This document shows positions 13,421-51,479 of a stretch of 64,000 nucleotides of DNA, in pieces. Location of the stretch: positions 682,001 to 746,000 of the forward strand of contig NC_016521.1 in assembly GCF_000236905.1 (NCBI RefSeq). The letters run 5' to 3'. The translations under genes were made by a program, and so were the position numbers. The notes beneath the pieces are model-generated. The model searched no databases. It worked only from the letters and a program-made list of their open reading frames with translations, and was not told the DNA's origin. Each line of letters opens with the position of its first letter. Position 1 is the stretch's first letter. This DNA comes from Tetrapisispora phaffii CBS 4417. Lineage: Eukaryota; Ascomycota; Saccharomycetes; Saccharomycetales; Saccharomycetaceae.

Positions 13421-14458
13421 TTAAAGCTGCAACATGAGTTCCTTATAATATAGAACATTTTGATCTCTTTTTTTTATTCTTAGTTTTGGTATTGGTATTA
13501 GATGATTGATGTTTATTTTCTTCTTTGTGGGAATGATATTCTTCATGAAATCAGATGCTCCTTGAGTTTCGGCTAACTTTTTGTTAATAAGCATATTAAT
13601 AGTTGAAGAAAACAACTCGTTGACTTTATAATTTGTTTTGGACGAAACTTGTATATGCCCATTTAATTTTAAATTCTTGTAGACTTCTTCTGCTTCTTTG
13701 CTCAGTATCAAATTATCTTCTAAATCTAATGTGTCATCAAAATATAAGTCTCTTTTCAAACCCACTAATATTATAGGAATTCCCGTAGTAAAATGTTTTA
13801 CTTCAGGAACCCAAATATTTTCAGCATTTATTAATGAAGATGGATTATCGATCGAATAACATATGAAAATAATATCTGCCTCGTCATATGCAAATGGTCT
13901 ATAGTTTTCGTCTTTCTTATCTGCCGAAACATCCCATAATGAAAACTCGATTTGTTTATTATAAGGTCCTTCAACATAATGTCTGTATTCGTCCAAGACC
14001 TTCGGTATCTTATTCTCATCAGTGGAATTCTTTTCATTACCATTATTTTGGATATATGTTAAAAGTAAAGAGGTCTTCCCTACACTAGAGTCACCTAGCG
14101 TGACTATTTTTATTGGAATACAATTACTGTATTTAGGAGTGTTTTCATTATTATTCTTCATGTGTTGGTAACTGATCACATCACTATCCTCTATATTCAA
14201 TTCGGGACTATTAATATTTAACAAAACCATGCCTGGGGTATCGACGACGCTAGTATGCGTCTGTGACTTGTTAGAGTTTGATACAATCAATGAATCGGAT
14301 CCATTCATTTTCGTATGACTACTGGAGTTTGTAATGCTGTTCTGGTTAATATCATCAACATAATAATCTAAAACATTTACCTTATCGACATTCTTATTGG
14401 CATTTATAGTATCAGTGACAGCAGTTGTTGCCGAATAACTATCTAATAGATCAGTCAT
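13421..14458 (-). CDS. RHO4: Rho4-like Rho GTPase with frameshifted C-terminus
   Basis: Rho4 is a Rho-family GTPase for actin polarity and bud growth. The gene sits at the YKR055W position and orientation. A roughly 110-residue hydrophilic N-terminal extension precedes the P-loop GDSSVGKT. The stretch IWVPEVKHF...PIILVGLKRDLY matches S. cerevisiae Rho4 (LWFPEVKHF...PIMLVGLKSDLY). Two oddities stand out. First, the switch-II motif, normally DTAGQE, reads DVSADKK, so the GTPase Gln is missing. Second, the open frame ends without a CAAX box. One extra A in the A8 run (plus-strand T's at 13468-13475) would make the end read RIKKKRSKCSIL with a stop at 13443-13445, a polybasic prenylation tail. 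I think this end is the true one, through a sequencing error or a real frameshift. Confidence 0.85.
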   Translation of the reverse strand: MTDLLDSYSATTAVTDTINANKNVDKVNVLDYYVDDINQNSITNSSSHTKMNGSDSLIVSNSNKSQTHTSVVDTPGMVLLNINSPELNIEDSDVISYQHMKNNNENTPKYSNCIPIKIVTLGDSSVGKTSLLLTYIQNNGNEKNSTDENKIPKVLDEYRHYVEGPYNKQIEFSLWDVSADKKDENYRPFAYDEADIIFICYSIDNPSSLINAENIWVPEVKHFTTGIPIILVGLKRDLYFDDTLDLEDNLILSKEAEEVYKNLKLNGHIQVSSKTNYKVNELFSSTINMLINKKLAETQGASDFMKNIIPTKKKININHLIPIPKLRIKKRDQNVLYYKELMLQL

Positions 14459-16178
14459 TTATTGTTTTTCACTTTAATATGCCTATAAATCGGACCTTTA
14501 ATTTGCTAACAATAGATATAAGTATAATCAGCAAGTGTTGGTCATTTAACGGCTGTTGCGGTTACTTCTTTCCCTCTTGTATCAAAGAAATTCAGTTTGC
14601 CGATGGAGAGTTCATCTATATATATATATATATATATTGTTACAATAAGATAATAGTTATATTTTGTAGGAATATGTACATAATTTTCTAGTTCTAAATA
14701 AAAGAAAACAATATATTTCCCTATAAGATTGTGACTACTACACTAATCACCATTTACAGGTTCTATTAAAATAAGTACGTAAAATATATGTAGCTATTAT
14801 TTGCATGTCAATTTATTGGCATATTTACAGCCTATTCAGTAGGAATTTTATCACTACGTAATTTATTCATTGTCTTGTGTGTCAACAAGGAACCATACTA
14901 AGGGGGGAACGAACGAGAAAAGAAAAACAGCTTAAGCTGTTGAAAGTGTCTCCTACTCAATACCATGTTTTTTGAAATAAGTTTAGGTAGTTGCACAAGA
15001 GAGGCATTAACTTTCATCCTATAAGCCTTCATGGTGTTAATTAATATTTTACAAACTATGTTATTATGGAACCATACAATTAACAGTTAATTGAAAAATA
15101 AAATAATTTAATTACTCAATATTCCAAATAGTTCGAAATGTATTTGGTCTCTTTTTCATAATTAACGATGTTTCATTGAGAAATATGTGTCCCTTTTTTT
15201 CTTTTATTTTTTTGCCGTCGTTGCAAAACCACAATATACCTATAATACACCTGTAGAAGGGGAAATAAAGACTAGATAGAGAGATAACAATTGGGAGAAA
15301 CAATTCTCTCAAGCCACGTATAAATTGCCTGGAGCGGTGCGGATGGTGTGTGTTCTTCTGTGTTTTCAGTCACATCACGGAGAGTACTCTTGTAGTATCG
15401 TAGCATTAACTATTAATATTCGGGTAACTCGGAGTTCCATGGTGAAATGTGTATTTGCTATGTTATCTGTAATATGCAGATAACCCTGACATTAGGTGGT
15501 TTGACAGTAATTTGTTAATGTGTCTGTCTCATTTAAGATCAAGGTGTCTGTAATAGTCATAAATGTGTTTAGATGTATGGCTTATATGTTCTACTAGAAT
15601 GTAAACTTACAAACCATGGCAGTTGTCTTGATATTACTGGTGTTCTCTTGAAGTAAAAAGCTATTTCGTTTTTAGTATTGATATTGGAAGAAAATATATT
15701 TTAATATTTTGGTTCCCTAGTAATATATAACCTTGCCGAGTTTGCCAAATCATAAAAAATGTACTGTTGCCAAAATTCTCTGAAACCGTCCTTCAACTAT
15801 GAAAGGGAACAACCATACTAGACATCTACTTACTCCATAATATATGCTTTAGTCTTGAATGTTTGGCAGTGACCTCATATTATATAATGAATTCACTTTT
15901 TTATATGTTTGCTTGCACGGCATAATTTCTGGAAATTATTTGCCAGATCTGGATCTGGACGGAATCCCTTTAAGCCAAATGATAAGGGCAACAAAATAGA
16001 AGGCAATTGGAAAATAATACACTGAACAAATTATATACTAAAAAGAGTACTAACAATTATATATATATATGCATATATATAAGAAAATATTGGTATTCGA
16101 AATATGAAGATTACATGGTTGTATACTATTCTCATCTAGTGATAACTAAAGTTTCCAAAACTTTTACATACCATCTAA
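14459..16178. other. Long intergenic region RHO4-LCB3
   Basis: About 1.7 kb between divergent genes. DYN1 (YKR054C) would be expected here from S. cerevisiae order and is absent. It contains a TA microsatellite at 14617-14638, a perfect 16-base palindrome at 14926-14941 and another TA-rich patch near 16058-16081. No gene recognised. Confidence 0.6.
14617..14638. repeat. (TA)n microsatellite
   Basis: An uninterrupted TA run of about 11 units in the RHO4 promoter region. Confidence 0.9.
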
Positions 16179-17423
16179 TTGACTACAACAATGACACATT
16201 TAACCATAGCCAGAACTAGAAGTCTATCAAATCCGAATGTTTTCAGCGGTTCCAAAGAAAACATTCTGGTCGATCCTGGGAATCATCCAGACTCTCATTT
16301 TGAACCACATATGTCTCCCCTGAGATTCAAAATGAGATCATATCTTTTACAATATACAGACTCACAATCAACTTATTTGGCAAAATGGCAGCAATACTAC
16401 AGATCAGATTTTCTAGATATTTATTTTTCATATTCTGCATCCTTAGCCTCACACACTTTCTATGTTATATGTTTACCAATACCAGTATTCTTTGATCAGT
16501 ATAACTTGGTACGGGATTTGGTTTATATAATCGGCTCTTCAATTTATTTAAGTGGATTCTTAAAGGATTATTGGTGTTTGCCAAGGCCCCAGTCACCACC
16601 AGTGAAAAGAATAACATTAAGTGAGTATACATCAAAAGAATATGGTGCCCCAAGCTCACACACTGCCAATGCAGTTGGTGTAACGTTACTATTTTTATTA
16701 AGAATATGGCAGCATGATTATATTTCAATAGGATGGAAGCTATTTTACTTATGCTTAGCAATATTCTACAATCTGACACTTGTTTTGGGCAGAGTGTACT
16801 GCGGTATGCATGGTATACTAGATATAACAAGTGGAGCAATAATAGGGGTTATTTGCTTCTTGGCAAGATTGACGATTCCACCGTTTTTGAAATCTATGAA
16901 TTTTCACCCGAGCGAGTATTTACTATTCCCTATGATAAGCACAGCATGCGGTTTATTTATTTTGCTATATCAGACCGTACCAATCGATGTATGTCCATGC
17001 TTTGACGACACTGTTGCATTCATCGGGGTTTTAGTAGGTATGGATGTGTCTCATTGGGCAATTGAAAGATATTCACTTGAACATGTGGTGAACAATTTGG
17101 GCGATCTGGAACGTGCAAGCACCTTACTTGTATCGACTAAGTTTTTATTAGGTGTCATACTTGTCGTTGTTTGGAAATATGCATTAAGTAAACCATTTTT
17201 GATATTTTTATTAAAGAACATATTAAGAATCAAAGACGATAGAAAATTAATCGAAGCTAAAGTAACTGCATGGCAAGCTGAACACCCACACGAATGTGCA
17301 CCATACTTTGGTAGGTCTAAATTTGAAATATATTTAAGATTTCTCAGTTATATTGGAATACCATTAACTGTTTTATTATTCTGTCCATACCTTTTCACTA
17401 CAATTGGACTAATCGTCCCATGA
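16179..17423 (+). CDS. LCB3: Long-chain base-1-phosphate phosphatase (LCB3/YSR3)
   Basis: An ER membrane phosphatase that dephosphorylates dihydrosphingosine- and phytosphingosine-1-phosphate, controlling sphingoid base levels and their reuse in ceramide synthesis. It has the three-part PAP2 active site: KDYWCLPRP (KX6RP, about residue 128), APSSHT (PSGH-like motif, about 157) and GRVYCGMHGILD (SRX5H-like with the catalytic His, about 204). About eight hydrophobic spans surround and follow these motifs. Length is 414 aa (S. cerevisiae Lcb3 409, Ysr3 404). A second Met at codon 5 could also start translation. Synteny (YJL134W/YKR053C) fits either WGD paralog. Confidence 0.92.
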   Translation: MTTTMTHLTIARTRSLSNPNVFSGSKENILVDPGNHPDSHFEPHMSPLRFKMRSYLLQYTDSQSTYLAKWQQYYRSDFLDIYFSYSASLASHTFYVICLPIPVFFDQYNLVRDLVYIIGSSIYLSGFLKDYWCLPRPQSPPVKRITLSEYTSKEYGAPSSHTANAVGVTLLFLLRIWQHDYISIGWKLFYLCLAIFYNLTLVLGRVYCGMHGILDITSGAIIGVICFLARLTIPPFLKSMNFHPSEYLLFPMISTACGLFILLYQTVPIDVCPCFDDTVAFIGVLVGMDVSHWAIERYSLEHVVNNLGDLERASTLLVSTKFLLGVILVVVWKYALSKPFLIFLLKNILRIKDDRKLIEAKVTAWQAEHPHECAPYFGRSKFEIYLRFLSYIGIPLTVLLFCPYLFTTIGLIVP

Positions 17424-18899
17424 ACTTAGTTATACAATTTGATAAATAAGAGATGTACATGTCCGCCGTGATATCTGCATGTTTGAAATAAGCAAAATCC
17501 AATACTAATATTTTCAGTCAATGTGAATGTCGACATTTTTTCTTCCCATATTTAACTCAGGTTTTCAATAACTATATGCCATTAAACTATGTACAGACAG
17601 CATGAAAATATATATGCCGAACTAAATATTGTGTAAACCTAAATACTAAGACATAAAATATTGTAACATACTATTACATCTTAATGCTTTTTATGCATAT
17701 TCTATATACTTTATGATGTTCTCGATCTTAATAAATGCCTTAGTAATGCTATTATATTTTTCATTATACATCTTACCCTTTCGAATGGTTAAACATTCCC
17801 ACACCATATAAAAATTTCAAAATTAATTTTCCTAATTAGGTAAACACATGTCTTAATTTGGAAAATTTGACAATTTGATGATTCTGTGTGTGCCCTGAAT
17901 AAATTGGAAAATAAATGTACATTTTAAGACAAGGCTCATATTATTATAACAATGAATATAATATGATAATGATGAGTTATTATTGATATATCTAGAATGA
18001 CAATCGGGTGTCATTGCTCTATAAATATGTATAATAATTCCATATTACTGATAGTTTTGTTCTTCTTTTCTTGGAAGAAGTAAAAACTATCGGTAAAGTG
18101 CAAAGTCACATAGTTAATTCTAATTGAATCACAATACACTCCCTTCAATATTATTCATTCTAATTGAAATTTTGAAAAAACACTATGGTTTTTTTAGATT
18201 CATGAAATTCATATATGTCGCTATGTACTCGTTTAGTGGGCTGGTTCTAAAAAATGTTCCTGACGATGCACAAGTTAGTATGTCTTTTCAGGTATACATT
18301 TCCATCTTTTAATTAGCTTTATTCATGTTTTAAAATTTTCGTAAACTGACCAACTTTTTTTCTTTCAAAAAATTATATAGTCAAGAAATGAGGACATTAT
18401 ATGCAATGAACTTAGTAATCAAACCAGAAATCTTCATAAATACACATACACACACACATATATATATAAAGATACGTATATTAACCGGTAAAATTTAAAA
18501 AAATTCAATTGAGGTATAACTTTCTGAATCTTATCATTCAATCAGTCACTCTCAATTAAATATATTTAATCGATACACATTAAGTCAAATACCAGCCAAC
18601 AAACTTGATTATTTAATATTACGATTTTTTGCAATTTTTCAACTGCCCTTTCTTTTCGTATAAAGAATCAGTGATATTAAAAAAAATAACGCCCATAGTA
18701 AAGTCTATTATATTCGAAAGAATTTAAAGAAAGGATCATTTTATAAATCTTCGAATATCAAGTCAATTTATTGAAATAATTGTATTTAAGAACTCATAAA
18801 TTCTACAATACAGTAAGAACACCTCATTTATCTGTAACTTCTAAGTCAGATATTAAATTACATACACAAGCGCATATATATACATATAGACAATATAGA
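17424..18899. other. Intergenic region LCB3-MRS3
   Basis: AT-rich. It contains a TG/TA compound repeat at 18441-18469. The 62-codon open frame at 18124-18312 has no recognisable domain. It includes the 120 bases in frame upstream of the preferred MRS3 start. Confidence 0.55.
18441..18469 (-). repeat. Compound (TA)n(TG)n microsatellite, inverted relative to the others
   Basis: On the plus strand a CA run precedes a TA run, which is the reverse complement of the TA/TG repeats elsewhere in the window. Confidence 0.85.
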
Positions 18900-19817
18900 A
18901 TGTCTGGTGTTGAAGAAATTGATTATGAGGCTTTACCTGATTCTGCTTCATTAAGTTCCCAATTAATGGCAGGTGCATTTGCAGGTATTATGGAACATTT
19001 TGTTATGTTTCCATTTGATGCATTAAAAACTAGAATTCAATCTCAAACTCAATCTACTTTACCAAAAAATTTAATCAAACAAATTTCCAAAATTACTACG
19101 ACTGAAGGTTCTTTAGCATTATGGAAAGGTGTACAATCGATGATTCTTGGTGCAGGTCCTGCTCACGCTGTATATTTTAGTACATATGAGTACATGAAGA
19201 AAACGTTAATCGATCAAAAAGATATGCAAACACATCAACCTTTAAAAACAGCACTAAGTGGTGCTACTGCCACAATTGCATCTGACGCTTTAATGAATCC
19301 ATTTGATACCATTAAGCAAAGAATGCAATTGAGTGGCTCTGAAAAAACTTGGTCAGTTACAAAAAATATTTATCATAAGGAAGGTCTACGAGCATTTTAC
19401 TACTCCTACCCAACCACAATTGCGATGAACATTCCTTTTGTTTCATTAAACTTTGTTATCTATGAATCATCTACCAAATTATTTAACCCCACCAACGAGT
19501 ATAACCCATTAGTCCATTGTTTATGTGGTGGTTTAAGTGGTGCTACATGTGCTGCTATCACCACTCCATTAGATTGTATTAAGACAGTTCTACAAGTCAG
19601 AGGTTCCAAATCTGTATCATTAGAAGTCATGAAAAAAGCTAATACATTCAGAAAAGCTGCAGATGCTATTTATCACGTTCATGGTTGGAAAGGGTTTTTG
19701 AGAGGTATTAAACCTAGAATTATTGCAAATGTCCCAGCCACTGCTATCTCATGGACTGCATATGAATGTGCAAAGCACTTTTTGATGGAAAATAGAACCG
19801 ATCATGTTAATAACTAA
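18900..19817 (+). CDS. MRS3: Mitochondrial iron carrier (MRS3/MRS4)
   Basis: A mitochondrial carrier of the inner membrane that imports iron for heme and Fe-S cluster synthesis (mitoferrin type). It has three tandem repeats of about 100 residues, each with a carrier signature: PFDALKTRIQ, NPFDTIKQRMQ and TPLDCIKTVLQ. The start chosen (MSGVEEIDYEALP) gives 305 aa, against 314 and 304 for S. cerevisiae Mrs3 and Mrs4, and resembles their N-termini. The frame stays open upstream to an ATG at 18780-18782. That would add 40 residues rich in Arg, Lys, His, Ser and Thr with one acidic residue, so a longer isoform cannot be excluded. The synteny position corresponds to YJL133W/YKR052C. Confidence 0.92.
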   Translation: MSGVEEIDYEALPDSASLSSQLMAGAFAGIMEHFVMFPFDALKTRIQSQTQSTLPKNLIKQISKITTTEGSLALWKGVQSMILGAGPAHAVYFSTYEYMKKTLIDQKDMQTHQPLKTALSGATATIASDALMNPFDTIKQRMQLSGSEKTWSVTKNIYHKEGLRAFYYSYPTTIAMNIPFVSLNFVIYESSTKLFNPTNEYNPLVHCLCGGLSGATCAAITTPLDCIKTVLQVRGSKSVSLEVMKKANTFRKAADAIYHVHGWKGFLRGIKPRIIANVPATAISWTAYECAKHFLMENRTDHVNN

Positions 19818-20114
19818 TCAAAATTATTATAGAATCATATTGAAAAAATCATTTTAGTTTTAATATTTATTAAAAAGATGAATTTAATAGGAAGGTTATT
19901 TATTTTACAATCTCTATAATTCTAAAATCATTACTTGTGAAAAAAGAAAACTAATGTAAAGCATGTATATAAGATCATCATTGTGACTATAAGTAAACAA
20001 GATTCTATCATCTATATTCGGTTTTGCTATATTTAGTCAATGTAAAAAACTTTCTGTAATATTGTAAAAATATATTATATTTTAATTACTTCAAGAATAT
20101 ACAAGTACATTAAT

Positions 20115-21428
20115 TTAATTATATCCATTAGAATTTCGTAAACTCTCACGGATAGTATTCATATCATTGGTATAACGATGACCTGCTACTTCCCAAATTA
20201 CTGGATAGTTCGGATCATCAATTCTATACTGCATTTCTCCTATGCTGTTATCCCAAGCCTCCTCTTCTAGTTCGTGAGATGCGTTTTTGCTTCCATAAGA
20301 AACAGCAGCTCTAAGAGGATCACCATCCAAGATGCTACCATAATCGGTTATTTGATACCTTTGCCTTCCATCATTGCTAAATCGAAATCCTTTATGAAGT
20401 TGCCTATTCCGTGACTCAAAAGACATAGCCGCCATTAAATCCCCGTCCGTATATGTTATGTCAAAGTTTTGATAGGTATAATAATTAGAACCAACGAGTA
20501 AAGTATGTTTGAAATCCCATTTTACATCATACGCACAGAAAGTGTCCCTCAAAGCGTACATGAATTCCATTCTAGCACATTTGGGTAAAATTTTGTACGA
20601 GTAATCTGACCATGAAAATGCTTTAACATGTAGTAAGGCAAAAAATATCATTTCTAAGCATAAGACTGTATTTTGACAAATATAGCTAAAATGAGCTCTT
20701 TCCTCAGGTCCATCTCCGCTGCTACCCATTATTCCAACCGAAATAAGAAGTTCTATTATAACACTTTGCCAATATGATGCAAATATAATTAGTTTAACAC
20801 ATAGAAATTTGCTCCAAGGATGAAACTTCTTTAAATTTGGTGCAAAATATATCCAGAACAAAGCTAAATTGTAGAGGGACCAAGTTACCGATATATTGTA
20901 TAGAAACAATAGTAAGTATCTTGCTTTTATAGATTTCCAGGTTTCCAATGCTAAAAGACTGCAGCAATATAACGGCTTGAACCAAACATATTGAAGGATA
21001 CCTCTCTTTACTTGGAGAAAGTCTTCAGGATCTGAGAGATCTAGTGGTTTCAAAAAATTACCAATGATAAATACCGGCTGCTTTATAGTACCATGTTCCA
21101 ATGATAACTCTGAGACAATTTTCCTTTCACCACCTAATATTAGAGTTAATAACGAGAAGAACGTAAATATGATAAATGCTTCATATACTTCCCTAATTGG
21201 GTCAGTTACGAAATGAGCAAATCCAGGTTTCACTATGGAAATGAAACAAGTCAAACTAAATATAGGTACAACCAGCAGTATCCTAATAGTTAACCTTTGC
21301 TCTAACGGTTTTCTGTAGTTTTGGAAATGTCGAACTATATCATAAAATGATATAGTAATTGCTATAGTAGAAGACAAAAAGCACAAAAATTTAATTACAG
21401 AGAGTACCTTTGAATCATCATTAATCAT
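20115..21428 (-). CDS. TMEM184/Ost-alpha-family membrane protein (YKR051W-like)
   Basis: A multi-pass membrane protein of the TMEM184 / organic solute transporter alpha family; S. cerevisiae YKR051W (418 aa) is uncharacterised. Length is 437 aa. Seven or so hydrophobic spans fill residues 8-285 (for example VIKFLCFLSSTIAITISFYD at the N-terminus and FIIFTFFSLLTLILGG). A soluble C-terminal tail of about 140 residues follows. Family-like segments are the QYVWFKPLYC and FCVKLIIFASYWQSV stretches. Position and orientation fit YKR051W. The substrate is unknown. Confidence 0.85.
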   Translation of the reverse strand: MINDDSKVLSVIKFLCFLSSTIAITISFYDIVRHFQNYRKPLEQRLTIRILLVVPIFSLTCFISIVKPGFAHFVTDPIREVYEAFIIFTFFSLLTLILGGERKIVSELSLEHGTIKQPVFIIGNFLKPLDLSDPEDFLQVKRGILQYVWFKPLYCCSLLALETWKSIKARYLLLFLYNISVTWSLYNLALFWIYFAPNLKKFHPWSKFLCVKLIIFASYWQSVIIELLISVGIMGSSGDGPEERAHFSYICQNTVLCLEMIFFALLHVKAFSWSDYSYKILPKCARMEFMYALRDTFCAYDVKWDFKHTLLVGSNYYTYQNFDITYTDGDLMAAMSFESRNRQLHKGFRFSNDGRQRYQITDYGSILDGDPLRAAVSYGSKNASHELEEEAWDNSIGEMQYRIDDPNYPVIWEVAGHRYTNDMNTIRESLRNSNGYN

Positions 21429-37570: not shown

Positions 37571-37623
37571 CTATATATCTATATTTACAATCTTATCTTT
37601 GTTTTTCAATATCCATGGGTGCA

Positions 37624-39372
37624 TTAATAATTCTTTATATGACCGTCTTTCGTGTGGATCTTTTTTAAGCATAAAGATATAAAATCTTGCGCATTAGTAC
37701 TGAATTTATCAGAAGGTAAAGTAGGGACTGGACCTGATACAATTGCATTTAATTGTGAAAATATATTATCATATATTTCAGCAGGGTAGGGATAGTAACC
37801 AAGAGCCAATTCTACTATAGTAATTCCTAATGACCAGATGTCGGAGTGAACAGAATAGGGTACCGACGTCTGATCATTAGAGTTAATACGTTCTGGCGCC
37901 ATATATGATTGACAGCCAATATTTGTTTTAGCCAATGAGGCAACTAGATTTCCTGATACACCAAAGTCACATAATTTGATTGAACCTTCAGTCTTTGAGT
38001 ATACAATATTGCTTGGTTTTACATCTCTATGCATTATATTATGTGAATCTTTTAACTCCATTAAACCCCTAATAATGGATTCGGCAATTTTTGATAATTG
38101 TTGCTCCTCAATTCCACTTATTTGTAAGCTTGTATCATCACAATCAGCATGAGTTAATTTTTTATTTTTTTCTGTTACACTTGATAGTGAACCACCATCC
38201 ATATATTCCATGCATATGTAAACTGTGCCTTCAACAAAGAAAGCTCCGTAAAAATCTATTACATAAGGAGAATTACAATTATGTAATACTTCCAATTCCA
38301 TTGATATTTGATTTAATTTAGATGTTTCTAATTCTAACTTTATTTTTTTGAGTGCCATTATTATCCCAGTTGTCTTATGTAAGACTTTAAACACTTGTCC
38401 ATAGTTACCTTCTCCAAGTTTTTCTAAATATTCAAAATCATCAATTGAGAACTTTGAAGATGAACCATTTGAATATTCTATCCCTTGAGGTGATAAAGAT
38501 AATTTACCTTCGAAGTTTATTGAACCAGTATCTATATCTAAAAATGGTGCGAAGCTTTCAAATACTCCTCCGGAAAAGTTGGTAAATTCGTTTGCTTCCT
38601 GTTTACCGAGATCCATTTCAAGTGGTAAATTTGCGGGAGTCAGAGGTGTTGCCATTTGATGTGAAAACATATCATTGTCATCGTCATCATCGTCATCATA
38701 ATTATCACAGACATCTAATGCTGACAATGTAGAAGGAGGAGCGACATTTGTGTTAGAACCTGTCCCAGTGACAGTATCTGTTTGCTTTGTTTTAAACATA
38801 AGATAGTCTTTTTCATTATTATCTTTATGGCTATGTAATTTTTTATTTTTATTCTCTGTAGTTTCCTTCAATCCTAACTTATTCAGTGACAGTCTCATGC
38901 CTCTTCTGGCACTTAAACTTGGTCTTCTTGAAGTTGTGGATTTTAGTTTATCACAATTATTAATCGATGTAGTATGTGAGACTGAAGTTAACTTATCATT
39001 TTCAATTGGTCTCTTTGGTGCAACTCTATTGGGATGAAGATTTAAAAATTCTGAACATTTTAATGTTGGTGAACATGGGGTAGGCGAAATAGATGGTGGA
39101 GTTGAAGGAGAAGAAATATCCTTATATGGCTTATGCGCCATTCTACTTTGTTGAAAATTACTTAATTTATATCTTAATTTTTTGTTTAATGTGGTATAAT
39201 TCTGTTGTATATCGAATTTATGATCATCTGCATTATATGAATTTAATTTGAATGAAGAAACATTTGGTGTATGTAACTGATTATTCTCAGCAGATAGCGT
39301 ATGTGATGCAGATCTTGGTAGATTAAAAGAATGTGCTTTTTCAATGGAGTCTTTAATAAGTCCGTCACCCAT
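37624..39372 (-). CDS. PBS2: MAP kinase kinase Pbs2 of the HOG pathway, frameshifted end
   Basis: Pbs2 is the scaffold and MAPKK that activates Hog1 in osmotic stress. The N-terminal half (1-290) is low complexity and includes an Asp run and the SARRGMRLSLNKLGLKE block. The kinase domain (about 308-575) has GEGNYGQVFK, VAIK-type MALKKIKLEL, HRDVKPSN, CDFGVSGN, the activation loop SLAKTNIGCQSYMAPER with its two phospho-sites, and DIWSLGITIVELALG. The frame then reads LKKIHTKDGHIKNY and stops. Adding one A to the A6 run (plus-strand T's at 37661-37666) gives LKKDPHERRSYKELLMHPW, the expected subdomain XI, with a stop at 37571-37573. The annotated end is therefore probably wrong by a single base. 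Even so the tail is shorter than in S. cerevisiae (668 aa). Confidence 0.93.
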   Translation of the reverse strand: MGDGLIKDSIEKAHSFNLPRSASHTLSAENNQLHTPNVSSFKLNSYNADDHKFDIQQNYTTLNKKLRYKLSNFQQSRMAHKPYKDISSPSTPPSISPTPCSPTLKCSEFLNLHPNRVAPKRPIENDKLTSVSHTTSINNCDKLKSTTSRRPSLSARRGMRLSLNKLGLKETTENKNKKLHSHKDNNEKDYLMFKTKQTDTVTGTGSNTNVAPPSTLSALDVCDNYDDDDDDDNDMFSHQMATPLTPANLPLEMDLGKQEANEFTNFSGGVFESFAPFLDIDTGSINFEGKLSLSPQGIEYSNGSSSKFSIDDFEYLEKLGEGNYGQVFKVLHKTTGIIMALKKIKLELETSKLNQISMELEVLHNCNSPYVIDFYGAFFVEGTVYICMEYMDGGSLSSVTEKNKKLTHADCDDTSLQISGIEEQQLSKIAESIIRGLMELKDSHNIMHRDVKPSNIVYSKTEGSIKLCDFGVSGNLVASLAKTNIGCQSYMAPERINSNDQTSVPYSVHSDIWSLGITIVELALGYYPYPAEIYDNIFSQLNAIVSGPVPTLPSDKFSTNAQDFISLCLKKIHTKDGHIKNY

Positions 39373-41144: not shown

Positions 41145-41284
41145 CTACTGTTTCTCTTCATTTGCCAATTCTACATCAGCAAATACACCATTCTCCAGGT
41201 CTTCTATTGCTGCATTAATCGCTGAACTTGGAGTCATTTGGATGTGGTGGTCTCCCTCATCACTATGTTCATTTGCACCTATAC

Positions 41285-43453
41285 TTATATTGCTACCGCT
41301 GTTATTAGAAGAATTCTTTTTTTTTTATGCTGCTGATGATGATGATTACGACTTTCTGTACTGCTGGTAGTATTATTATGTTTCCTTCTATTTTTATTGT
41401 TATGGTGTGGAAGTGCAACTTCTGCAACCTCCAGATATTTCCTTTTTCTTCTATCATTCTCTTCTCCAATAAATCTGTTAAATGAATTCATTTCTACTTC
41501 TTGATTCGCCGGATTTTCTTCTTGCATTAAGTCTTCATCTTCTTCATTTGCAAGTTGTATATCTCTCCTTTCAATTACCGCATTCGTTCGCATTGCAGTC
41601 TCCGACATTAGTTTTGTATTATTTTCATTTGATAATTTCATTTTGTGCTTATTAGTGGTGTTCGAAGATGTTGGTGATAAAAATGGAGTCGGTAATGTAA
41701 TGTTATTATTTAATGAATCTGGTGGTGTAGGTTCGATGATTTCATCTTTTTCGGTTTCGTTTTGTAGATTTCGTACTGCTGCAGCTGCCATTTGTGATAA
41801 TGTTGAAGAATGATAAAACTCCTCATCTTCATCCATCATTGGTGAAACGGTTTTCCCATTTGAATTTATGTCAGAACGTTTACTCATACTCTTGTCACCA
41901 TTATGTTCAATATTGTTGTCATTATCGTTATTATCATTATCAGTACTGTTACCATTATTATTTGTACTATTATTATTATTATATTTATGAATAGTCATTT
42001 TAGAACTAGTATTCTTATGCATGTTTGTATTTGATTGTAAATGGTTATAATTCATGGGGACATTAACCCCTCCATCTACGTCACTTAAATCATTATCGTA
42101 AATAAATTTTGCGTCTTCGATCATGGATCCAGCGTCATTCCCACGTGAAGGTTTATTTATATGCAGTAAATTGGCTGATGCTATTGCATTTTCGGGTAAC
42201 ATATGTGCTTGAGGAACGTTATCATTTGGCATGACTACCACACCTGTGCCATCTAAATGTCTCATCTTGCATTTTAGACATTGTGCTAAAACTTCAGATA
42301 CTGTATTTTTAATACCTTTCCAATGATACCTTTCTACAATTTTGGATGTAATCTTATTAATACCTTGATGTTCCACTAAATGCATTTCCATTGCAATTTG
42401 TTTTTGTTTCAATGGATCAAATATAATTTCGCGTCCTTTTGTCATTAGTTTACCGTTTAATAAATAATGTGTCTTTGATGAAACACGAAGTCTCGCCTTT
42501 TCATTTCTATCACAATATGGTGGGTATTTTTTAACTTTTAAATAATATATCAATCTTTCATATTTTGAGATATCTTCTGTTTTTTCTGGATCTCTTAAGG
42601 AATCCATTCCTTTTGTGATATGTGTATATTCTTTCCCATATATGAATGAATCCACAGGAACATCAAACCCTTTTAAAATACCAGATTCTGGGATTTTACC
42701 AATTCTTTTGAAGTTTAAAACTTCAAATATTCTTCTTATACCAACGCTAGTACTGTATATTAGCGGGAAATAACATGAAGTAAAACCAAGTCGTTTTGCC
42801 CATTCATTAAATGTTTCGACTAATGTTTTACCAATACCTTTACCCCGGATACCTGCATTAACTAAAAATGACCCAGTAACTACATGCGATGATCTACCAG
42901 GATATGCAGGATTTAAAGAAAACAAACCTAAACATTGCTTTTCCCATTGTATATTTAGACTTAAATTTCTTCTTTGCTTACGTTTTTTATAATACGAAGA
43001 ATTTCTCATCGTTTCAATATTAGTACCATAATTATTCTCTAAATCACTTATATCGTTTTCAATGCTATAATCTAATTCAGGAATTTCACCTAATACCATG
43101 ATACAAATATGGCCATCCTTTTGAAACCATACTTCTTTGAATTTAGATAAAGACAGCGGTTCATAGAATGGGAAACTGTCACCTTTTTCAATTTCCATAT
43201 TAAATTCATCTAACAAAAAAGCTAATAAACCTATTGGTAGTAATTCAGGATTCGCAGGCAATGGATACATTGTAGCTGTAGTCTCACCATCCTTCAATAG
43301 AAGTGTATGCGGTTGTAGAGGCGTGTGATACATCATATTCACGGAATCATCAAATTCACCATCATCAGTTTCTCTACCATGGACATCGCCATTTGATATG
43401 AAATTTTTGTCATAGTTAGGTGACAGTCCACCAACCTGAGAAAATATATTCAT
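41285..43453 (-). CDS. SPT10: Spt10 histone-gene activator (GNAT + zinc finger), frameshifted end
   Basis: Spt10 binds the UAS of core histone genes and carries an acetyltransferase-type domain linked to H3 K56 acetylation. The GNAT fold is at about residues 85-270, with acetyl-CoA-binding-like VNAGIRGKGIGKTLVETF. A zinc finger follows at about 365-410 (HLVEHQGINKI...CLKCKMRH, H-X3-H...C-X2-C), the retroviral-integrase-like finger known from Spt10. The C-terminal part is Asn/Ser-rich. The open frame ends at 41285 in HKKKRILLITAVAI. Adding one A to the A10 run (plus-strand T's at 41317-41326) opens about 59 more codons, starting KKNSSNN and stopping at 41145-41147, of similar composition to the rest. 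I take this as the real tail. S. cerevisiae Spt10 is 640 aa; this one is 722 aa as it stands. Confidence 0.9.
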   Translation of the reverse strand: MNIFSQVGGLSPNYDKNFISNGDVHGRETDDGEFDDSVNMMYHTPLQPHTLLLKDGETTATMYPLPANPELLPIGLLAFLLDEFNMEIEKGDSFPFYEPLSLSKFKEVWFQKDGHICIMVLGEIPELDYSIENDISDLENNYGTNIETMRNSSYYKKRKQRRNLSLNIQWEKQCLGLFSLNPAYPGRSSHVVTGSFLVNAGIRGKGIGKTLVETFNEWAKRLGFTSCYFPLIYSTSVGIRRIFEVLNFKRIGKIPESGILKGFDVPVDSFIYGKEYTHITKGMDSLRDPEKTEDISKYERLIYYLKVKKYPPYCDRNEKARLRVSSKTHYLLNGKLMTKGREIIFDPLKQKQIAMEMHLVEHQGINKITSKIVERYHWKGIKNTVSEVLAQCLKCKMRHLDGTGVVVMPNDNVPQAHMLPENAIASANLLHINKPSRGNDAGSMIEDAKFIYDNDLSDVDGGVNVPMNYNHLQSNTNMHKNTSSKMTIHKYNNNNSTNNNGNSTDNDNNDNDNNIEHNGDKSMSKRSDINSNGKTVSPMMDEDEEFYHSSTLSQMAAAAVRNLQNETEKDEIIEPTPPDSLNNNITLPTPFLSPTSSNTTNKHKMKLSNENNTKLMSETAMRTNAVIERRDIQLANEEDEDLMQEENPANQEVEMNSFNRFIGEENDRRKRKYLEVAEVALPHHNNKNRRKHNNTTSSTESRNHHHQQHKKKRILLITAVAI

Positions 43454-44270
43454 CTTGGTCCAGCAAGCAATGTGATATATTAAATTTGATGGGTATAATA
43501 GTATGCTATGTGCTTGAGTTGAAATAGTAGCTTAATTTCCAACACTACTTTTATATAGTGCTCACTATGGAGAAACACGAAACTTATAATTTTTATATGT
43601 ACTATTTAAATTAGTAAAGTACTTTTACGTAATCGGCGGGTAACATAATACATGCAATCATTTAGGATAAAAAGAAGGTATATAAAGTTAATGCATATAT
43701 ATAAACTATGTTGATATAGTTCAGCTATACTTAGTAAGGAAAGACATGAGATAATAGTTCAAGAATAAATTTACATATAGTATTTGTACTTTCCTTATAA
43801 GTTTTTGATTCTAGCATTAATATTTGGATGTAGTAGAGTACAACATGTCACAACCGTCTCAAATAGTTGTAATGAAATAATATAATTAAATAATGTAATA
43901 TATATAATATTTTATATCCATTGTAAAATAGAGAAGTAGAACTGTGATCATATTGCTTATTTTCCATATCTATATGTTAGTAAACAAATAGATCGGATAT
44001 ATTCAATCCTATGTCTTTGATTATAGGATTAGCACCCATTTCTATTACCTTGCTTTTTGAATTCTTGTACATTCGCCGCAAAGAATAAAGGGGATCTCAG
44101 ACCAAAAATGCAACCGATCTCAAGTCAAATACAATTAAAGACAATCTCTTCGTAATTATAAGTAAAATTAATTTGTTAACTAGGTAACTAGTATACATTC
44201 TTAGCTTGTCAACTCTTTAAGCAGATATATATCCACAGTCTCAAGAATATTTGAACTTACCACCGCCACA
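43454..44270. other. Intergenic region SPT10-FMP46
   Basis: A divergent promoter region for SPT10 and FMP46, AT-rich. NIT2, GCD14, LSM1, MTC1 and ALB1, which follow SPT10 in S. cerevisiae, are absent. Confidence 0.55.
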
Positions 44271-44684
44271 ATGTCACTATTTAGAACTTTACAGAACCAA
44301 CCTCGTGTGATCTCTTTGTTTACGCAAGGCGTAGAGGTGAACTCCGGATCTAAGATTTTATATAATGAATTGAATAAACATTGCAAAAGTGCTGATGCGA
44401 AGACAAGGTTCAACATTGAAGTCCATAAGACGTTTCCCACTCTTGATCAATTAAAATACATGGTTGACATAAATCCAAAGGTAGTAGAACAACAGGTTCC
44501 AAACCTAATGAAAATCATTAGTGCTAAGAATAATTCTGGCATATTTGGCTCAAGTTTGGAAACTTGTATCAAAGAAGGTATATGGAACCCAGAAAAATCG
44601 ATTTGGATGGATTGGGAGAAAAAAAGTATTGGTAATAATCTCAGCAGTTTACAAACCTACTTAAAGAGTTTAGAAACTAAGTGA
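44271..44684 (+). CDS. FMP46: Fmp46-like mitochondrial thioredoxin-fold protein
   Basis: A small mitochondrial protein of 137 aa (S. cerevisiae Fmp46, YKR049C, 133 aa), described as a putative redox protein with a thioredoxin fold. Shared features are the N-terminal TLQNQPRVISLFT, the RF-IEV/FPTLDQL-YM block in the middle, and the C-terminal KEGIWNPEKSIWMDWEKKSIGN. The two Cys residues (in KHCKS and TCIK) are far apart, so a classical CXXC site is not visible. It is next to RPE1, convergent and separated by less than 200 bases. Position and direction match YKR049C when chromosome XI is read in reverse. Confidence 0.85.
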   Translation: MSLFRTLQNQPRVISLFTQGVEVNSGSKILYNELNKHCKSADAKTRFNIEVHKTFPTLDQLKYMVDINPKVVEQQVPNLMKIISAKNNSGIFGSSLETCIKEGIWNPEKSIWMDWEKKSIGNNLSSLQTYLKSLETK

Positions 44685-44862
44685 TTGTGACAATGTCAGT
44701 ATCATTGCCATACAATTATCTTATGTCGAATGTTTCCTTCTATTTGGGAACTAAATTTTATTATAATTATATATTCTTTCTTACTATTTATGTCTCTACC
44801 TTATGTATATTTTTTTCTTCTAATAATAAAGAAAACTCAACAGAAAACTGTTATCAAACATA

Positions 44863-45570
44863 TTAATCAAGAAGATTTTTTGATTTTAAGTTATCATTGA
44901 CTTTTTCTCTCATAAAGCTAATGACATCAACAGGATCGGATGCTTTAAACACACTAGTACCTGCAACGATAACATTAGCACCTGCATTGGCAGCCATTGG
45001 GATCGTCTCCTTACCTAAACCACCGTCGACTTGAATGTCCAGTTGTGGGAATAGTTCTCTTAATTTGGCAACCTTTGGCATCATATCTGGCATGAACTTT
45101 TGACCACCAAAACCTGGTTCAACAGTCATTACTAATGCCATATCCAGATATTTACCTAGTTCGAATAAGACGTCGACTGGAGTACCTGGTTTGATGGCAC
45201 AGGCTGCCCTTATACCATGGGATTTGATTAATTTGACTAGAGCCAGAGGATCCTTTGTAGATTCGTAATGGAAAGTGAATTGATCAGCCCCGCACTTGGC
45301 GAAATCTTCGACCCATTGTTCTGGGTTTGAGACCATCATGTGGCAATCAAAGAACGCTTTTGGTTTATCAGACACATCACCTGGTCTTGGGACTGCTTTT
45401 CTTAGAGATTCTACAATTGGTTGACCAAGAGTGATATTTGGAACAAAATGTCCGTCCATGACATCAATATGTAACCAGTCTGCACCTGCATTGATAACAC
45501 GATGACAGTCACAGCCTAGATTTGAAAAATCAGAAGCTAGAATACTTGGAGCAATAATAGATTTAACCAT
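44863..45570 (-). CDS. RPE1: Ribulose-phosphate 3-epimerase
   Basis: Interconverts ribulose-5-phosphate and xylulose-5-phosphate in the non-oxidative pentose phosphate pathway (cytosol). A TIM-barrel enzyme with metal-binding and catalytic motifs intact: [56 protein letters not shown] and VIVAGTSVF. The frame starts three codons earlier (ATG at 45577-45579), but the second ATG ([10 protein letters not shown]) matches the usual start and gives 235 aa, close to 238 in S. cerevisiae. Codon use is moderately biased. It corresponds to YJL121C. Confidence 0.97.
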
Positions 45571-46412
45571 TGTAATCAATTGTATGAGCGAGTTTGTATT
45601 GTAGGTAGTAGTTGCTCTTCTTGAACACTTTCAGATTTCCACACCCGGCATTGTAATTATGATTAGAGTGGGTTCATATATATATATATGTGTGTGTGTG
45701 CGTGTGAATTGATTAAGCTTACAAAGTTCGATAGAACTATGTACGTCCTTTAATTTCTTTTCTTTTTCGTTTCTTTTCTTTCAGAACAGAAATTGCCAGT
45801 AAACCCCTGCGCACAGTGACACAAGCAGGCCTCGAGGTCTCGACAAACTTTCCAGACACTCAACTCAGTTCGGATCGGATCGCATCAAGGGAAAAGAGCG
45901 TCAGTGCGGTGTTAAAAACCAAATGAGAGACCCGGGTAAGCAGCAGCAGTTGACTATAAGGACAGTGACATTTATTGAATGGGCGAGAGGAGGGCATTCA
46001 GGATGATTAAATAAGGTCGCATTTACTTCTCTTGTGAAGTAAAGATATATGTATATATATATATAGTAGATGTTATGTTTCATATGTTACTCTTCTAATA
46101 TGAAAACATAAATTTGAGTTAGACTACAACCTCAAATCATAACTCACCATCCATACATATATATCATATCGAAGGTATATAATATAATTTCGGGACCGCG
46201 TTAAGTTTTCTTGTAATTGGTTATCTTTTCTAGATGTATAATTTATATAAAATTTCATTTAGACTAAACATAAATATATAGAATATGAGACCATGTCCTA
46301 TTTATATGATTTCATTAATTTCATTTCTGTGAGTACAATAACTGTCTTCAACTAACTAAGCATGAAGAACCATATTTATATCGGAAGATATTCGGTTATG
46401 ACCCATGCTTCA
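45571..46412. other. Intergenic region RPE1-retroelement
   Basis: Holds the RPE1 promoter, a compound TA/TG repeat at 45675-45706 and another TA tract at 46048-46066. The lower part (from about 46085) may be the diverged body of the element's 3' LTR. Confidence 0.5.
45675..45706 (+). repeat. Compound (TA)n(TG)n microsatellite
   Basis: TA repeat running directly into a TG repeat, about 105 bases upstream of the RPE1 start. Confidence 0.9.
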
Positions 46413-46451
46413 TGTTGAAATCTGAATTCAAGTATTACTCATATTTCAACA
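46413..46451 (-). repeat. LTR start, 3' copy
   Basis: 39 bases matching 49726-49764 at 34 positions. The unit ends in inverted TGTTGAAAT / ATTTCAACA. It abuts the polypurine tract at 46452-46460. Confidence 0.8.
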
Positions 46452-49120
46452 CATCCCCCTAATGCTGAATTTGGTATTCATGACCTTCCCTGTGAAGTAC
46501 TCGATTTTGTCTCGAGCAAGGGCCTTTGTCATCATATCGGCTGGCTGTTCATTTGTTCCAATCTTCTTAATAACCAAAGTCCCTCTGCTAGACTGATCAC
46601 GGATTTTATGGTAGTGGAGCGGAATGTGTTTGGTTCGGAAGTGAAACACGGGATGCTTAGCTAGCTCAAGCGCTGGCTGGCAATCGATGTATAAAACAGG
46701 AGGTTATATCTTCAGATCCATGAACTTAAAGAAGTTGACCAGCCATTGACTTTCTTTGACCGCCTCACTCCCAGCTATGCATTCAGCTTCGGTTGAGGAC
46801 AAACAGACGGTGGATTTAATCTTCCTCGAAGACCACGTGACCGCACCATCGGCCATTGTAGTGATATATCCCCCTGTTGAAAAAGGGAGATCATCTTTGG
46901 AAGCGGTCGAAGCATCGGTATAGATAGAGATAGAAAGGGGATGACTCGTTTTGTAACACAGACTATCGTAGCGAGTGGTGTAGAGATACTGGAGCAAACG
47001 TTGAGCAGCAGCGAAATGAACTTGACGTGGGGATTCAAGAAACCGGGATAGAGTGGACACAGCAAACGAGATGTCAGGTCTTCCTGCGTTGGCAGCAAAT
47101 AACAGTTGACCAATCAGGCTCTGATAGGGGGTGATATTGATTAATAGAGGTGAAGTATCACCAAATAAGTCAGTGGTCTTGGATAATGGTGTGTGTACAG
47201 CCTTGTCCACGTTGATTTGGGACGTGCTCGCAGCAGAGCTAATGTACTCAGAGAGATCTAGAGAAATGCTATTCTCGGATTGTTTAATGGTCATTCCGAG
47301 AAACTTATTAACAGGACCTAGATCCTTCATGGAATACGAAGAACAGAGCAACTCTTTTAAGGGAGTCATTGCCTTGGAAGATGGAGCAGCAATCAGTAAG
47401 TCATCAACATATAAGGCGACAAGGACCAAACCATCGGCAGATTTAGAGAAATAGAGACCGTATTCACCAGCATGACGAGTAAACCCAAATGAGAGCAGCG
47501 TCTCGTTAATGTGTGTGTTCCATAGAAACGGGGCTTGTTTCAGACCGTACATCCCACCTTTTAGTTTCCAAACATGAGTCGGATAGTGAGAGTCAAGAAA
47601 CCCTGGAGGTTGACGAACATAGACCTCCCCATCAATAGCAGAATTGAGAAATGCGGTATCCACATCCATTTGATGAATACGAAGTTTGAGAGAGGCAGCC
47701 ATGGCAAGAAACAGGCGAACTGAGTCATAACGAATGACTGGGGCAAAAGTTTCACTATAGTCAATGCCTTCTTTCTGCGAGTTTCCTTGGGCGACTAGCC
47801 GAGCCTTCTTCAGACCATTTGATTTCTCAGTAAATACCCAGCGAGAACCTAAAGAGCGACGACCGGTGGGAAGAGGAACCAGTTCATAAGTTTCATGTGA
47901 GCGAAAGGCAGACAGTTCACGAATGCATGCAGCTTTCCATTCAGCAGCATCGGGATGTGACATGGCCTGATTGATAGTTCGAGGCAGTTGAGCTTCGTAT
48001 GATTGGTGAGCAACAAGAACAGCAGTAAGAACTGGATGGATAGAGTGGGACGATGCCGAGGTAGGTGACGAGGCTAGCTCATCTAGCTCACTGGAGGAGC
48101 TTTGAATGTGCATAAGTTCATTGGTGGTCAGAGGCGAGTCGGCAGTAGCGGGAACAAAAGACTGAGGAAGGACACGAAGGAATGGTGGATCTGGAAATAG
48201 TTGTTGACTAACAGCGACGGGAGGTAATGGAGGTGAAGACTGTGAGGCCTCCGTGTATTGTGCAAGAGCATCCTCAGTAGAAATAATTTTACCATTTTGT
48301 GTATTATATAGATAAATTAACTTTTCCCCAGCAGCTGCTTCAAACTGTGTATACCTAATATTCCGGTCGTGGGACTCGGTTGGATTCAAGTGTCTGCTTT
48401 TAACCAAGCGCACACCGTCGACTTCTGGAAGAGATTGGCCGACAATACTTTCATCGGTATGGTTGTGTCTTTGGTTGTGTGGACGAATGTGTTCTATGTG
48501 TCTTTCGAATTCCTGCTTGGCTTTATTAAGCTCTGTAGTGTGGTTAGCTTTGAGCTCATCTATCTGCTTCATTAATCGAGTATTACTGCTCGTTTGCCTC
48601 TCTATCTCCAGAGCAGCGGCCTCTTGTTGGGCTTTTAAAGCAGAATGAAGCTGTTGGATTTGTGCTTGCAGAGCTGGGCTTTCGGGCTCAACAGATGAAA
48701 CAATGGATCTTCGCAAATACTGAGAAGGGCGAAACTCAGAATCAGAGTTGTCAGGCGAGCTTGTAACATCGTTATTGTTGGCAGAAACATTGTTGGAGAT
48801 AACAGAAATGACGTCACTGGAGTTGATAGTCTCATTTCTTCCCAACAAATTTAAACATGTGGCCTGGTGATCAGGGTTCAATGCAATAAGCATCAGAGCC
48901 TCAAAATGATCCAGGACTTTCTGCATATTATTTTCTTTTTCACTGTCAGACAAGTAAGTGCCTCTTTCTGCAGCAATAATCTGTTTTGCAACAGTTCTAA
49001 GGGATTTACTAGCCCAGGAGTGTTGTTCTTCGATCGACTTGTTAAACATTGACTGGATCTGATTGAATAACATGGCGGTAGTGCCAACTTTTACCCTACC
49101 GTAAGTTTCCTTTAAGAAAG
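46446..49120 (-). pseudogene. gag-RT-RNase H fusion of the copia element, broken
   Basis: A 789-codon frame (46704-49073, open a little further upstream in the same frame) followed after one TAA (46704-46706) by 85 more codons in frame to 46446. The first third is gag-like and hydrophilic, with a coiled-coil stretch (QIQQLHSALKAQQEAAALEIER). From about residue 370 comes the copia RT: SRWVFTEK, ARLVAQGNSQKEGIDYSETF, MDVDTAFLNSAIDGEVYVRQ, GLKQAPFLWN and the catalytic YVDD in LVALYVDDLLIAA. RNase H starts at YTDASTASKD and goes past the TAA to FRTKHIPLHYHKIRD and ADMMTKAL. No zinc knuckle, protease or integrase core is visible between gag and RT. Confidence 0.9.
46452..46460 (-). other. Polypurine tract of the retroelement
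   Basis: AGGGGGATG on the minus strand, directly before the 3' LTR start TGTTGAAA. This is the place expected for plus-strand priming. Confidence 0.75.
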
Positions 49121-49474
49121 CTATGACCTGAATTGATACTGATTGAAATGAGTCGAGGTATACTTTCTAATAACAGCCTGGACATGGGCTTCAGAACTTG
49201 TCAAAATTGCAGTTTTAACGGCCGTGTCCAGTAAATTTAATACGAACTTCTTGATTATAGCATTTTCTTGAACTTCTACAGGAATGCTAGTAACGTTGCC
49301 GTTATTTTCGAAATATTCAAAAAGTTCAAGTCGAATAATAGATAGTTTATTCGAGAAGGATGCATACCAAAAATCAAAGTTGTCTTCTCCATTTAGTTGG
49401 ACGTCGAAGTAGAAGTCATTTGCGACAGGGCTCATAACCTGTTGAGATAGTAATTGGGCGTACTGGGAAGACAT
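49121..49474 (-). pseudogene. gag N-terminus of the copia element
   Basis: 117 codons starting MSSQYAQLL about 15-30 bases inside the 5' LTR end. It contains a capsid-like stretch (NFDFWYASFSNKLSIIRLELFEYF). It ends at a TAG, while the next frame (+1) continues as VIAFLKETYGRVKVG and into the main fusion. A small frameshift near 49121-49135 therefore separates the two, either a decay mutation or the equivalent of the +1 gag-pol frameshift of Ty elements. The position inside gag argues for decay. Confidence 0.8.
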
Positions 49475-49725
49475 ACTACTATTAGTGTTGTTGTAATAAT
49501 AATTTGTACAATTAGTCGAGTTGTAATTGCTTATTGTATTCTATTCTTTTCTTTTATAAATTATATATCTGACATGATTGATACACATGCCTTTTTATAT
49601 CTTTATGTCTGGGAATGACTAAAAATAACTTTGTTAACACATTGTTACAAAGTTATATTGACACCCAGATCTTTTCTCCTATAACTAAATGTTATTAAGA
49701 AAGTTAATTTTCTACGCGGTCACAG

Positions 49726-49764
49726 TGTCGAAATATGAATTCAAGCACTACTCATACTTCAACA
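49726..49764 (-). repeat. LTR start, 5' copy
   Basis: Starts TGTTGAAGTATGAG on the minus strand. The rest of the 5' LTR runs down to about 49490, where ACAACA precedes the gag ATG by about 15-25 bases, and it includes a TATAAAA-like box near 49590. Confidence 0.75.
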
Positions 49765-50232
49765 TAGAATGACCAATGTGTACTAGGATATATCCAATTA
49801 ACTGGTCGATATTCGTTGTCATTAACAGTTGTTTTCGTTACATTCTGTATATGATGAGGTGAGATTAGATGATTGTTTGATTTGTCGAAGTGATTTTAAA
49901 TGCTTCATTTGGTGGTTGGTGGTATATGAGCTTTCTTGATAGTTCCTATTCGGGAGTAGCCGAACGCACGTGAATGATTTTTATTCAGAATGTATAGTTT
50001 ATGCATTGAGAATGAATGGGGTCTATACTTTGTAATTCCTTAAATATTTTGATGACGATCCTTTTTTTTGACCCCTTACTAAATTATATAAATACAAAAG
50101 TATCTTTGTTTATTTATTTATATATAGAAAAATCTATTCTTCGTAAAACTAATAATGATAGCATTATTAATCTTTAGTATACATTGATTCTGTAACAACA
50201 TCTAAGACAGTATTTTCATAAGCTACTACAGT
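49765..50232. other. Intergenic spacer retroelement-perilipin gene
   Basis: Promoter region of the perilipin-like gene, including a T-rich patch near 50062-50070. Nothing else seen. Confidence 0.5.
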
Positions 50233-51318
50233 ATGGGTATCAAGAATACTATTAATGATATAACAATGTCTAATTCAAATAGCAACTCTCAGGATGACTT
50301 TTCGAAACATGAGGTTAAGATTGTTATTGATAAGAAGACAATCGAAAAGTTTACTCAATCTTCCCCTACTTTGAATCATTTAGCAAAATATAAAGTCATC
50401 TCAATATTTTTAAATTACTTTTTGAATTTACCTTTTTTCTCTTCTATTGTCTCCTGGATTATATGTTATAATTATAAATTTAAAAAAACATTATTAGAAT
50501 CGAATAATGTACCAATTGTAGCTAAAAGAATATATCAACGTGCAGAAAATCTAATTTGGAAATGTGACGAAGTCTTCAATTACTTAATTTTAAGAGAAGG
50601 AATTGATCATTTTTTCCTTGAATTAAATAAGAGACATTATTTACCTGGAGTATGGTTACTTTGGTTTTATATCGATTATTTGGCAAATTTCATTGACGTT
50701 TTATTAAAAGAGTTAGTCATTAAACCATTTAAAATTTCTTATATTACAAAAAATGAAAACAATTCAAATTTAGGCTCAAACTCAAATTTAAACTTAGAAT
50801 TAAACTCAAATGCAAAAGATTTAGAAACAAAAAAAAAATCGAACGGTACTACTTATGACAACTTATCGAATTTAAATTACAACAGCAGTAATGAGGATTT
50901 GGAAGAATTAAATAATAAAAATATTGTAGAGTTACCTCATTTATATGAATTAACCAGTACAACTAAAAGTATCTCCAAAGATATACAAGAGAAGTTAAAT
51001 GATAATTATAATAGTTACATCAAACCGACTACTCAAAAATTAACTAATTTATACATTGATGAACCTAAAAAAATAATGTCACAAGTTCATTCAGCAAAAT
51101 CAACTGAAATTTATAAAACTGTCTCCGGAAGTTATGAAGAAAACTTTAAAAAAAATAATGAAAGTATTCCAAGGGCAATAGTCTCAACAGGCAAGGATAT
51201 TGGTTCGTTAACTTTAGAAAAATTGACAAAAACAAAACAACAACAAGCTCATACTGATAAAGCCAAGGAATCTACCACCCCAAAATTTTTTAAAGAAAAA
51301 ATTACGATCCTGGTTTAA
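50233..51318 (+). CDS. PLN1: Perilipin-like lipid-droplet protein (PLN1/PET10), frameshifted end
   Basis: Position and direction match YKR046C (PET10/PLN1), the yeast perilipin that coats and stabilises lipid droplets. The protein starts with a hydrophilic Ser/Asn stretch, then VKIVIDKKTIEKFTQSSPTLNHLAKYKVI and a PAT-like region (about 45-170) of amphipathic segments ending in a WLLWFYIDYLANFIDVLL hydrophobic patch. An Asn/Ser-rich linker (about 180-230) is followed by a charged tail. I infer identity from synteny and the PAT-like layout, not from a remembered alignment. The frame stops at KFFKEKITILV. One extra A in the A6 run at 51296-51301 opens 30 more codons (NYDPGLKDIKPEDF onward) to a stop at 51390-51392, which is probably the real end. 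Confidence 0.7.
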   Translation: MGIKNTINDITMSNSNSNSQDDFSKHEVKIVIDKKTIEKFTQSSPTLNHLAKYKVISIFLNYFLNLPFFSSIVSWIICYNYKFKKTLLESNNVPIVAKRIYQRAENLIWKCDEVFNYLILREGIDHFFLELNKRHYLPGVWLLWFYIDYLANFIDVLLKELVIKPFKISYITKNENNSNLGSNSNLNLELNSNAKDLETKKKSNGTTYDNLSNLNYNSSNEDLEELNNKNIVELPHLYELTSTTKSISKDIQEKLNDNYNSYIKPTTQKLTNLYIDEPKKIMSQVHSAKSTEIYKTVSGSYEENFKKNNESIPRAIVSTGKDIGSLTLEKLTKTKQQQAHTDKAKESTTPKFFKEKITILV

Positions 51319-51479
51319 AGGATATTAAACCAGAAGACTTTACACACAATAATAAACCTTTACAAAACAATGAAACAATAGTAAACATTTAAAATATTGA
51401 CGTTCTAAAAATCTTATTTATTGAGAATCATCTGTTTTCACCTCTTTTTAAAATAAAAAAAAATAAAAATAGAATAACG

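Follow-up and report, generated by a model that had tools for sequence, protein, structure and literature searches.

One-base frame breaks at A-runs in Tetrapisispora phaffii CBS 4417: probable homopolymer errors of a presumed Roche-454 assembly

Background

The YGAP laboratory has sequenced multiple yeasts by Roche-454 with de novo assembly, and the excerpts of its report give the corrections that were made: in T. blattae 398 bases were inserted (194 A and 184 T) and 48 deleted, and in N. castellii there were 81 additions and 28 deletions, with 75 sites left flagged (PMC3507789). According to the same excerpts, YGAP repairs frames by using pairs of TBLASTN matches that lie in different frames, and where no reads are available one or two N are put in (PMC3507789). 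Here we analyze a window of 64,000 nucleotides (the whole stretch under study, positions 682,001 to 746,000 of contig NC_016521.1) of the yeast Tetrapisispora phaffii CBS 4417. In this window four genes, RHO4, PBS2, SPT10 and PLN1, carry a run of A (A8, A6, A10 and A6, respectively) shortly before the end of their open reading frame (ORF), and past each run the -1 frame remains open, giving a tail.

Two other kinds of system offer a comparison. In -1 programmed ribosomal frameshifting the shift takes place at a slippery heptamer of the form X XXY YYZ. In bacteria slippage is described where nine A or T stand in a row, and in the endosymbionts Buchnera and Blochmannia poly(A) transcriptional slippage concerns genes whose frame is broken at an A-run and whose conserved tail follows it (excerpts of PMC5009743).

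In a review, an excerpted table gives the genome of T. phaffii CBS 4417 as 12.1 Mb on 16 chromosomes with Gordon et al. 2011 as its source, and Gordon et al. are likewise credited there with the genomes of N. castellii and T. blattae (PMC5499181). Since these last two are genomes of the YGAP report, we infer that the YGAP 454 project and the project of Gordon et al. are one and the same and that it included T. phaffii. The excerpts of PMC12202755 and PMC6196229 make no mention of the break sites.

Results

Four broken frames in the window

The initial annotation of the window had claimed that each of the four genes lacks one A near its 3' end. For the recorded ORFs this description is accurate in all four cases, and homology bears it out for three of the tails, while the tail of PLN1 is unproven. 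The features are as follows, in window coordinates.

13421..14458, minus strand: RHO4 ORF as recorded, Ras/Rho family, 345 amino acids (ORF list and Pfam-type match; the name RHO4 is that of the initial annotation)
13468..13475, minus strand: A8 run of RHO4, switch to the -1 frame (sequence)
13446..13475, minus strand: RHO4 tail in the -1 frame, KKKRSKCSIL, with a CAAX-type end (homology)
37624..39372, minus strand: PBS2 ORF as recorded, 582 amino acids (name likewise from the initial annotation)
37661..37666, minus strand: A6 run of PBS2, switch to the -1 frame, with the in-phase heptamer A AAA AAG (sequence)
37574..37666, minus strand: PBS2 tail in the -1 frame, 31 amino acids, final part of the kinase domain (homology)
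41285..43453, minus strand: SPT10 ORF as recorded, 722 amino acids (homology)
41317..41326, minus strand: A10 run of SPT10, switch to the -1 frame (sequence)
41148..41324, minus strand: SPT10 tail in the -1 frame, 59 amino acids (homology and coding score)
50233..51318, plus strand: PLN1 ORF as recorded, Perilipin_2, 361 amino acids (profile match and homologues)
51296..51301, plus strand: A6 run of PLN1, possible switch to the -1 frame, with no slippery heptamer (sequence)
51294..51389, plus strand: possible PLN1 tail in the -1 frame, 32 amino acids (coding score only)

The tails of RHO4, SPT10 and PLN1 were scored against homologues together with 200 shuffles, and for RHO4 and SPT10 the other two frames were treated in the same way. 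The RHO4 tail aligns with KKKKFKCTIL, which is the C-terminus of the sole close homologue found (P0138, from Vanderwaltozyma polyspora); none of the 200 shuffles scores as high, whereas 159/200 and 71/200 do so in the other frames. The SPT10 tail scores 67 against 65 homologues and again no shuffle equals it, compared with 27/200 and 77/200 in the other frames. In V. polyspora, the best named relative for both RHO4 and SPT10, the same C-terminal part is found inside one predicted protein. PBS2 was read against the Pkinase profile table, which holds 128 matches: the recorded ORF has a Pkinase match that ends at profile position 248 of 263, and the best 60 of the 114 rows obtained with the tail alone are all protein kinases, although these matches are weak (best E-value 0.0041, six below 0.05). 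At the level of sequence comparison, the tails of RHO4, PBS2 and SPT10 are thereby shown to belong to their genes. RHO4 and PBS2 are beyond the reach of coding statistics, with tail scores of 0.4 and 2.1, so both rest on homology.

RHO4 could be compared with its relatives in the same genome. In the Ras, Rho and Rab groups of small GTPases the C-terminus is mostly a prenylation motif. The assembly (12,115,070 bases in 17 contigs) contains 31 small GTPase matches, two of which are in the window, and we examined 18 of the other 29. A prenylation-like end lies in frame in 16/18, including three genes that together have four stretches of A6 or A7 between the domain and the box. The two genes without an in-frame motif look to us like Ran and Tem1, types that lack prenylation; in the second of them each of the other frames has one motif-like end over 630 bases, and these are taken as chance. 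RHO4 is thus exceptional, and an out-of-frame box is no habit of this genome.

PLN1 is the case in which an alternative survives best. Its recorded stop may be the natural one and the open frame that follows a product of chance, which would be compatible with miscalls in the other three genes; we hold this to be rather unlikely, though to be reckoned with. The part of PLN1 conserved among homologues lies within the recorded ORF, comparison with 15 homologues lends the tail no support (172/200 shuffles score as high), and an open frame of 32 codons would not be rare in AT-rich DNA. In the other direction, the coding score of the tail, 7.4, is above that of all 92 extra-base controls (maximum 2.6), and a missing base is called there by a hidden Markov model (HMM) blind to homopolymers at shift penalties of 0.002 and 0.0005, but not at 0.0001.

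Survey of the flanking sequence

The survey covered 264 kb, that is, the 64-kb window and the 200 kb upstream of it on the same contig, and positions preceded by C2 are contig coordinates, in which the flanking genes are given. A coding-score scan anchored on runs was applied to the tails of 92 ORFs in the missing-base direction, with the extra-base direction as control. Missing-base scores above 5 were obtained for BFR1 (19.4), SPT10 (17.0), PLN1 (7.4) and RSC8 (6.3). An analogous scan of gene starts had a scorable candidate in just 68 (missing-base) and 19 (extra-base) ORFs. The following candidates come from the flank, the names BFR1 and ROM2 being presumptive.

C2:657768-659264: BFR1-like gene, missing-base candidate at an A6 run, with a coding-like tail of 44 amino acids (score 19.4; the ORF has no Pfam match)
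C2:639564-641177: RSC8 gene, missing-base candidate at an A8 run (score 6.3; the ORF matches RSC8 in PDB)
C2:543525-543993, minus strand: small gene whose coding frame changes mid-gene near an A7 run, in the extra-base direction (HMM and coding signal)
C2:550721-554572, minus strand: ROM2-like gene with a coding-like head of 83 amino acids in another frame before an A8 run, near the start (extra-base score 18.2)

The 264 kb thus hold six missing-base and two extra-base candidates, of which one extra-base candidate is mid-gene and the other, near a start, is uncertain. The head of the ROM2-like gene stands apart in the start scan, where the next scores are 1.2 (missing-base) and 1.1 (extra-base), and it could be a separate small gene. 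The uniform deficit of one A at 3' ends that the initial annotation described does not extend beyond the window, since both extra-base candidates are in the flank, mid-gene and near a start. The resulting mixture of both directions, with missing bases in excess, resembles the published corrections.

Moreover, NN occurs twice (C2:654509-654510 and C2:654573-654574) inside the ORF C2:653945-655060, which matches Mrp51 in Pfam. We infer that these patches in MRP51 are traces of frame repair by stand-in N, as in YGAP. The flank also holds two single N, next to simple repeats.

The HMM was run at four shift penalties (0.01, 0.002, 0.0005 and 0.0001). The setting of 0.01 gave 66 calls (41 missing-base and 25 extra-base) and was not used. 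At 0.002 there were 23 calls, 13 of them at extreme gene ends, including one at RHO4; these 13 were judged an artefact of the way the HMM handles stops and were set aside. The other ten comprise SPT10, PLN1, BFR1 and RSC8, two extra-base calls, two in the gene patched with NN, one in an RPS21-like exon and one in a copia-like element. PBS2 received no missing-base call from the HMM.

Two of these calls fall on other features of the window. At 11601-11884 (minus strand) there is an exon outside the ORF list (which starts at 120 amino acids) that we take to be that of RPS21, and an intron probably explains the frameshift call there. At 46704-49474 (minus strand) lies a reverse transcriptase ORF of 789 amino acids, presumably of a copia-like family, with a frame change called at 49139; the sequence at 44-48 kb is GC-richer (GC 0.393).

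How informative the pattern is

The initial annotation regarded the uniformity of the breaks as a mark of 454-type sequencing. Taken alone, the pattern is weak evidence and less informative than it appears. On the coding strand of 93 ORFs there are 201 runs of at least six A and 62 of T, and in the last 13% of the ORFs the figures are 33 and 5, so that composition accounts for the restriction of the breaks to A: with runs in this local proportion, all six sites would be A with a probability of 0.43. Likewise, all six would be missing bases with a probability of 0.50 if the T. blattae ratio applied and of 0.17 under that of N. castellii. The 3' bias of the breaks probably comes from curation.

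Two further tests concern the runs themselves. Runs of at least 8 are broken in 3/18 cases, against 3/248 for runs of 6-7 (p 0.0046). The interval within which the shift could lie contains a run of at least six at all six missing-base sites, compared with 364 of 5000 random anchors, a control that is not length-matched: three of the six intervals measure 69, 105 and 138 bases, and the control median is 36. Because of these three long intervals, and because the candidates were partly chosen by the run-anchored scan (four of the six sites, the same four that the HMM recovered independently), the interval test is indicative only.

Discussion

The breaks are best read as homopolymer length errors left in a presumably Roche-454 assembly of T. 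phaffii, to which we give a probability of about 0.9; the case is circumstantial and is not a proof. For all four genes of the window, the organism would then have one base more in the run than the record shows, and this deficit would create the early stop. BLAST-based frame repair may have cleared most of the breaks where a gene matches well and overlooked those followed by short or poorly conserved tails; being blind to short tails, such repair would leave errors concentrated at gene ends. That a 454-type error could survive near 3' ends by escaping curation was already proposed in the initial annotation, and the excerpted YGAP corrections and repair scheme lend this circumstantial support. 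The indels of the Wolfe-laboratory 454 assemblies, as the excerpts of PMC3507789 describe them, and the candidates seen here are alike: a single A or T is concerned, more often lacking than in excess, the reading frame is broken as a result, and N are found inside genes. Unlike the raw indels handled by YGAP, the T. phaffii sites are those that remain after any repair.

Several points weigh against this reading. The word phaffii is absent from the YGAP text (PMC3507789), and to the lack of homologue support for the PLN1 tail may be added that the tail of RSC8 has no RSC8 match in PDB. The breaks in BFR1 and RSC8 are candidates drawn from coding statistics only. The trend with run length fits miscalls and equally well real slippage mutation. 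Finally, 5/38 runs of at least six in the last 13% of the ORFs are broken (BFR1 is just outside, at 0.87). A very rough expectation, derived from the T. blattae corrections and the surveyed run density with coding DNA taken as 8 Mb, is that ~3% of runs are miscalled, which would give ~1 break at gene ends. Either the raw data were worse here, or some of the breaks are real tolerated changes.

This last excess, together with the near-end positions and the increase with run length, would fit recent genuine one-base deletions, produced in A-runs by replication slippage and tolerated near gene ends. We consider it improbable that such deletions account for the breaks: the tails retain conserved sequence, the deletions would cost RHO4 its membrane-anchor motif and PBS2 the end of its kinase domain, one extra-base candidate sits midway in a small gene, and the NN patches would indicate that frames have been edited in this assembly.

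Productive recoding, in which the A-runs would serve as sites of -1 ribosomal frameshifting or polymerase slippage and full-length proteins or C-terminal isoforms would result, was the rival named in the initial annotation, and as a general cause it is unlikely. The sites do resemble -1 programmed frameshifting in that the shift is into the -1 frame and a slippery heptamer stands in phase at four of the six missing-base sites (RHO4, PBS2, SPT10 and RSC8), but PLN1 and BFR1 have no heptamer. The z-scores of pseudoknot-free folds downstream of the six sites range from -2.53 (PLN1) to 1.15, with no common signal. The runs measure 6, 6, 6, 8, 8 and 10, half of them being A6. Together these results make a shared mechanism unlikely, though slippage at one long run is conceivable. 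Bacterial slippage at nine consecutive A or T (excerpts of PMC5009743) would be a precedent, yet only the run of SPT10 is at least that long, and the sites differ from those of Buchnera and Blochmannia in that three of six runs are only A6 and the genome is the nuclear genome of a yeast. Moreover, close homologues of RHO4 and SPT10 keep the tail within one predicted protein and need no shift, which is therefore not conserved, and the in-frame ends of 16/18 other small GTPases speak in the same direction. On this evidence we give productive recoding very little credit, and no more to its narrower form, in which the longer runs (RHO4 A8, SPT10 A10 and RSC8 A8) would be correct and slippage would yield a shorter and a longer form, such as an unanchored and an anchored RHO4.

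Conclusions

If homopolymer miscalling is the true cause, a reference yeast genome carries one-base errors in A-runs that shorten its proteins. The finding is a caution about data and not a discovery, and probably no new biological mechanism is behind it. Read literally, the recorded sequence would suggest for T. phaffii an anchorless RHO4 and a PBS2 whose kinase domain is incomplete. Before gene loss, protein ends or frameshifting are studied in T. phaffii, run lengths should be verified.

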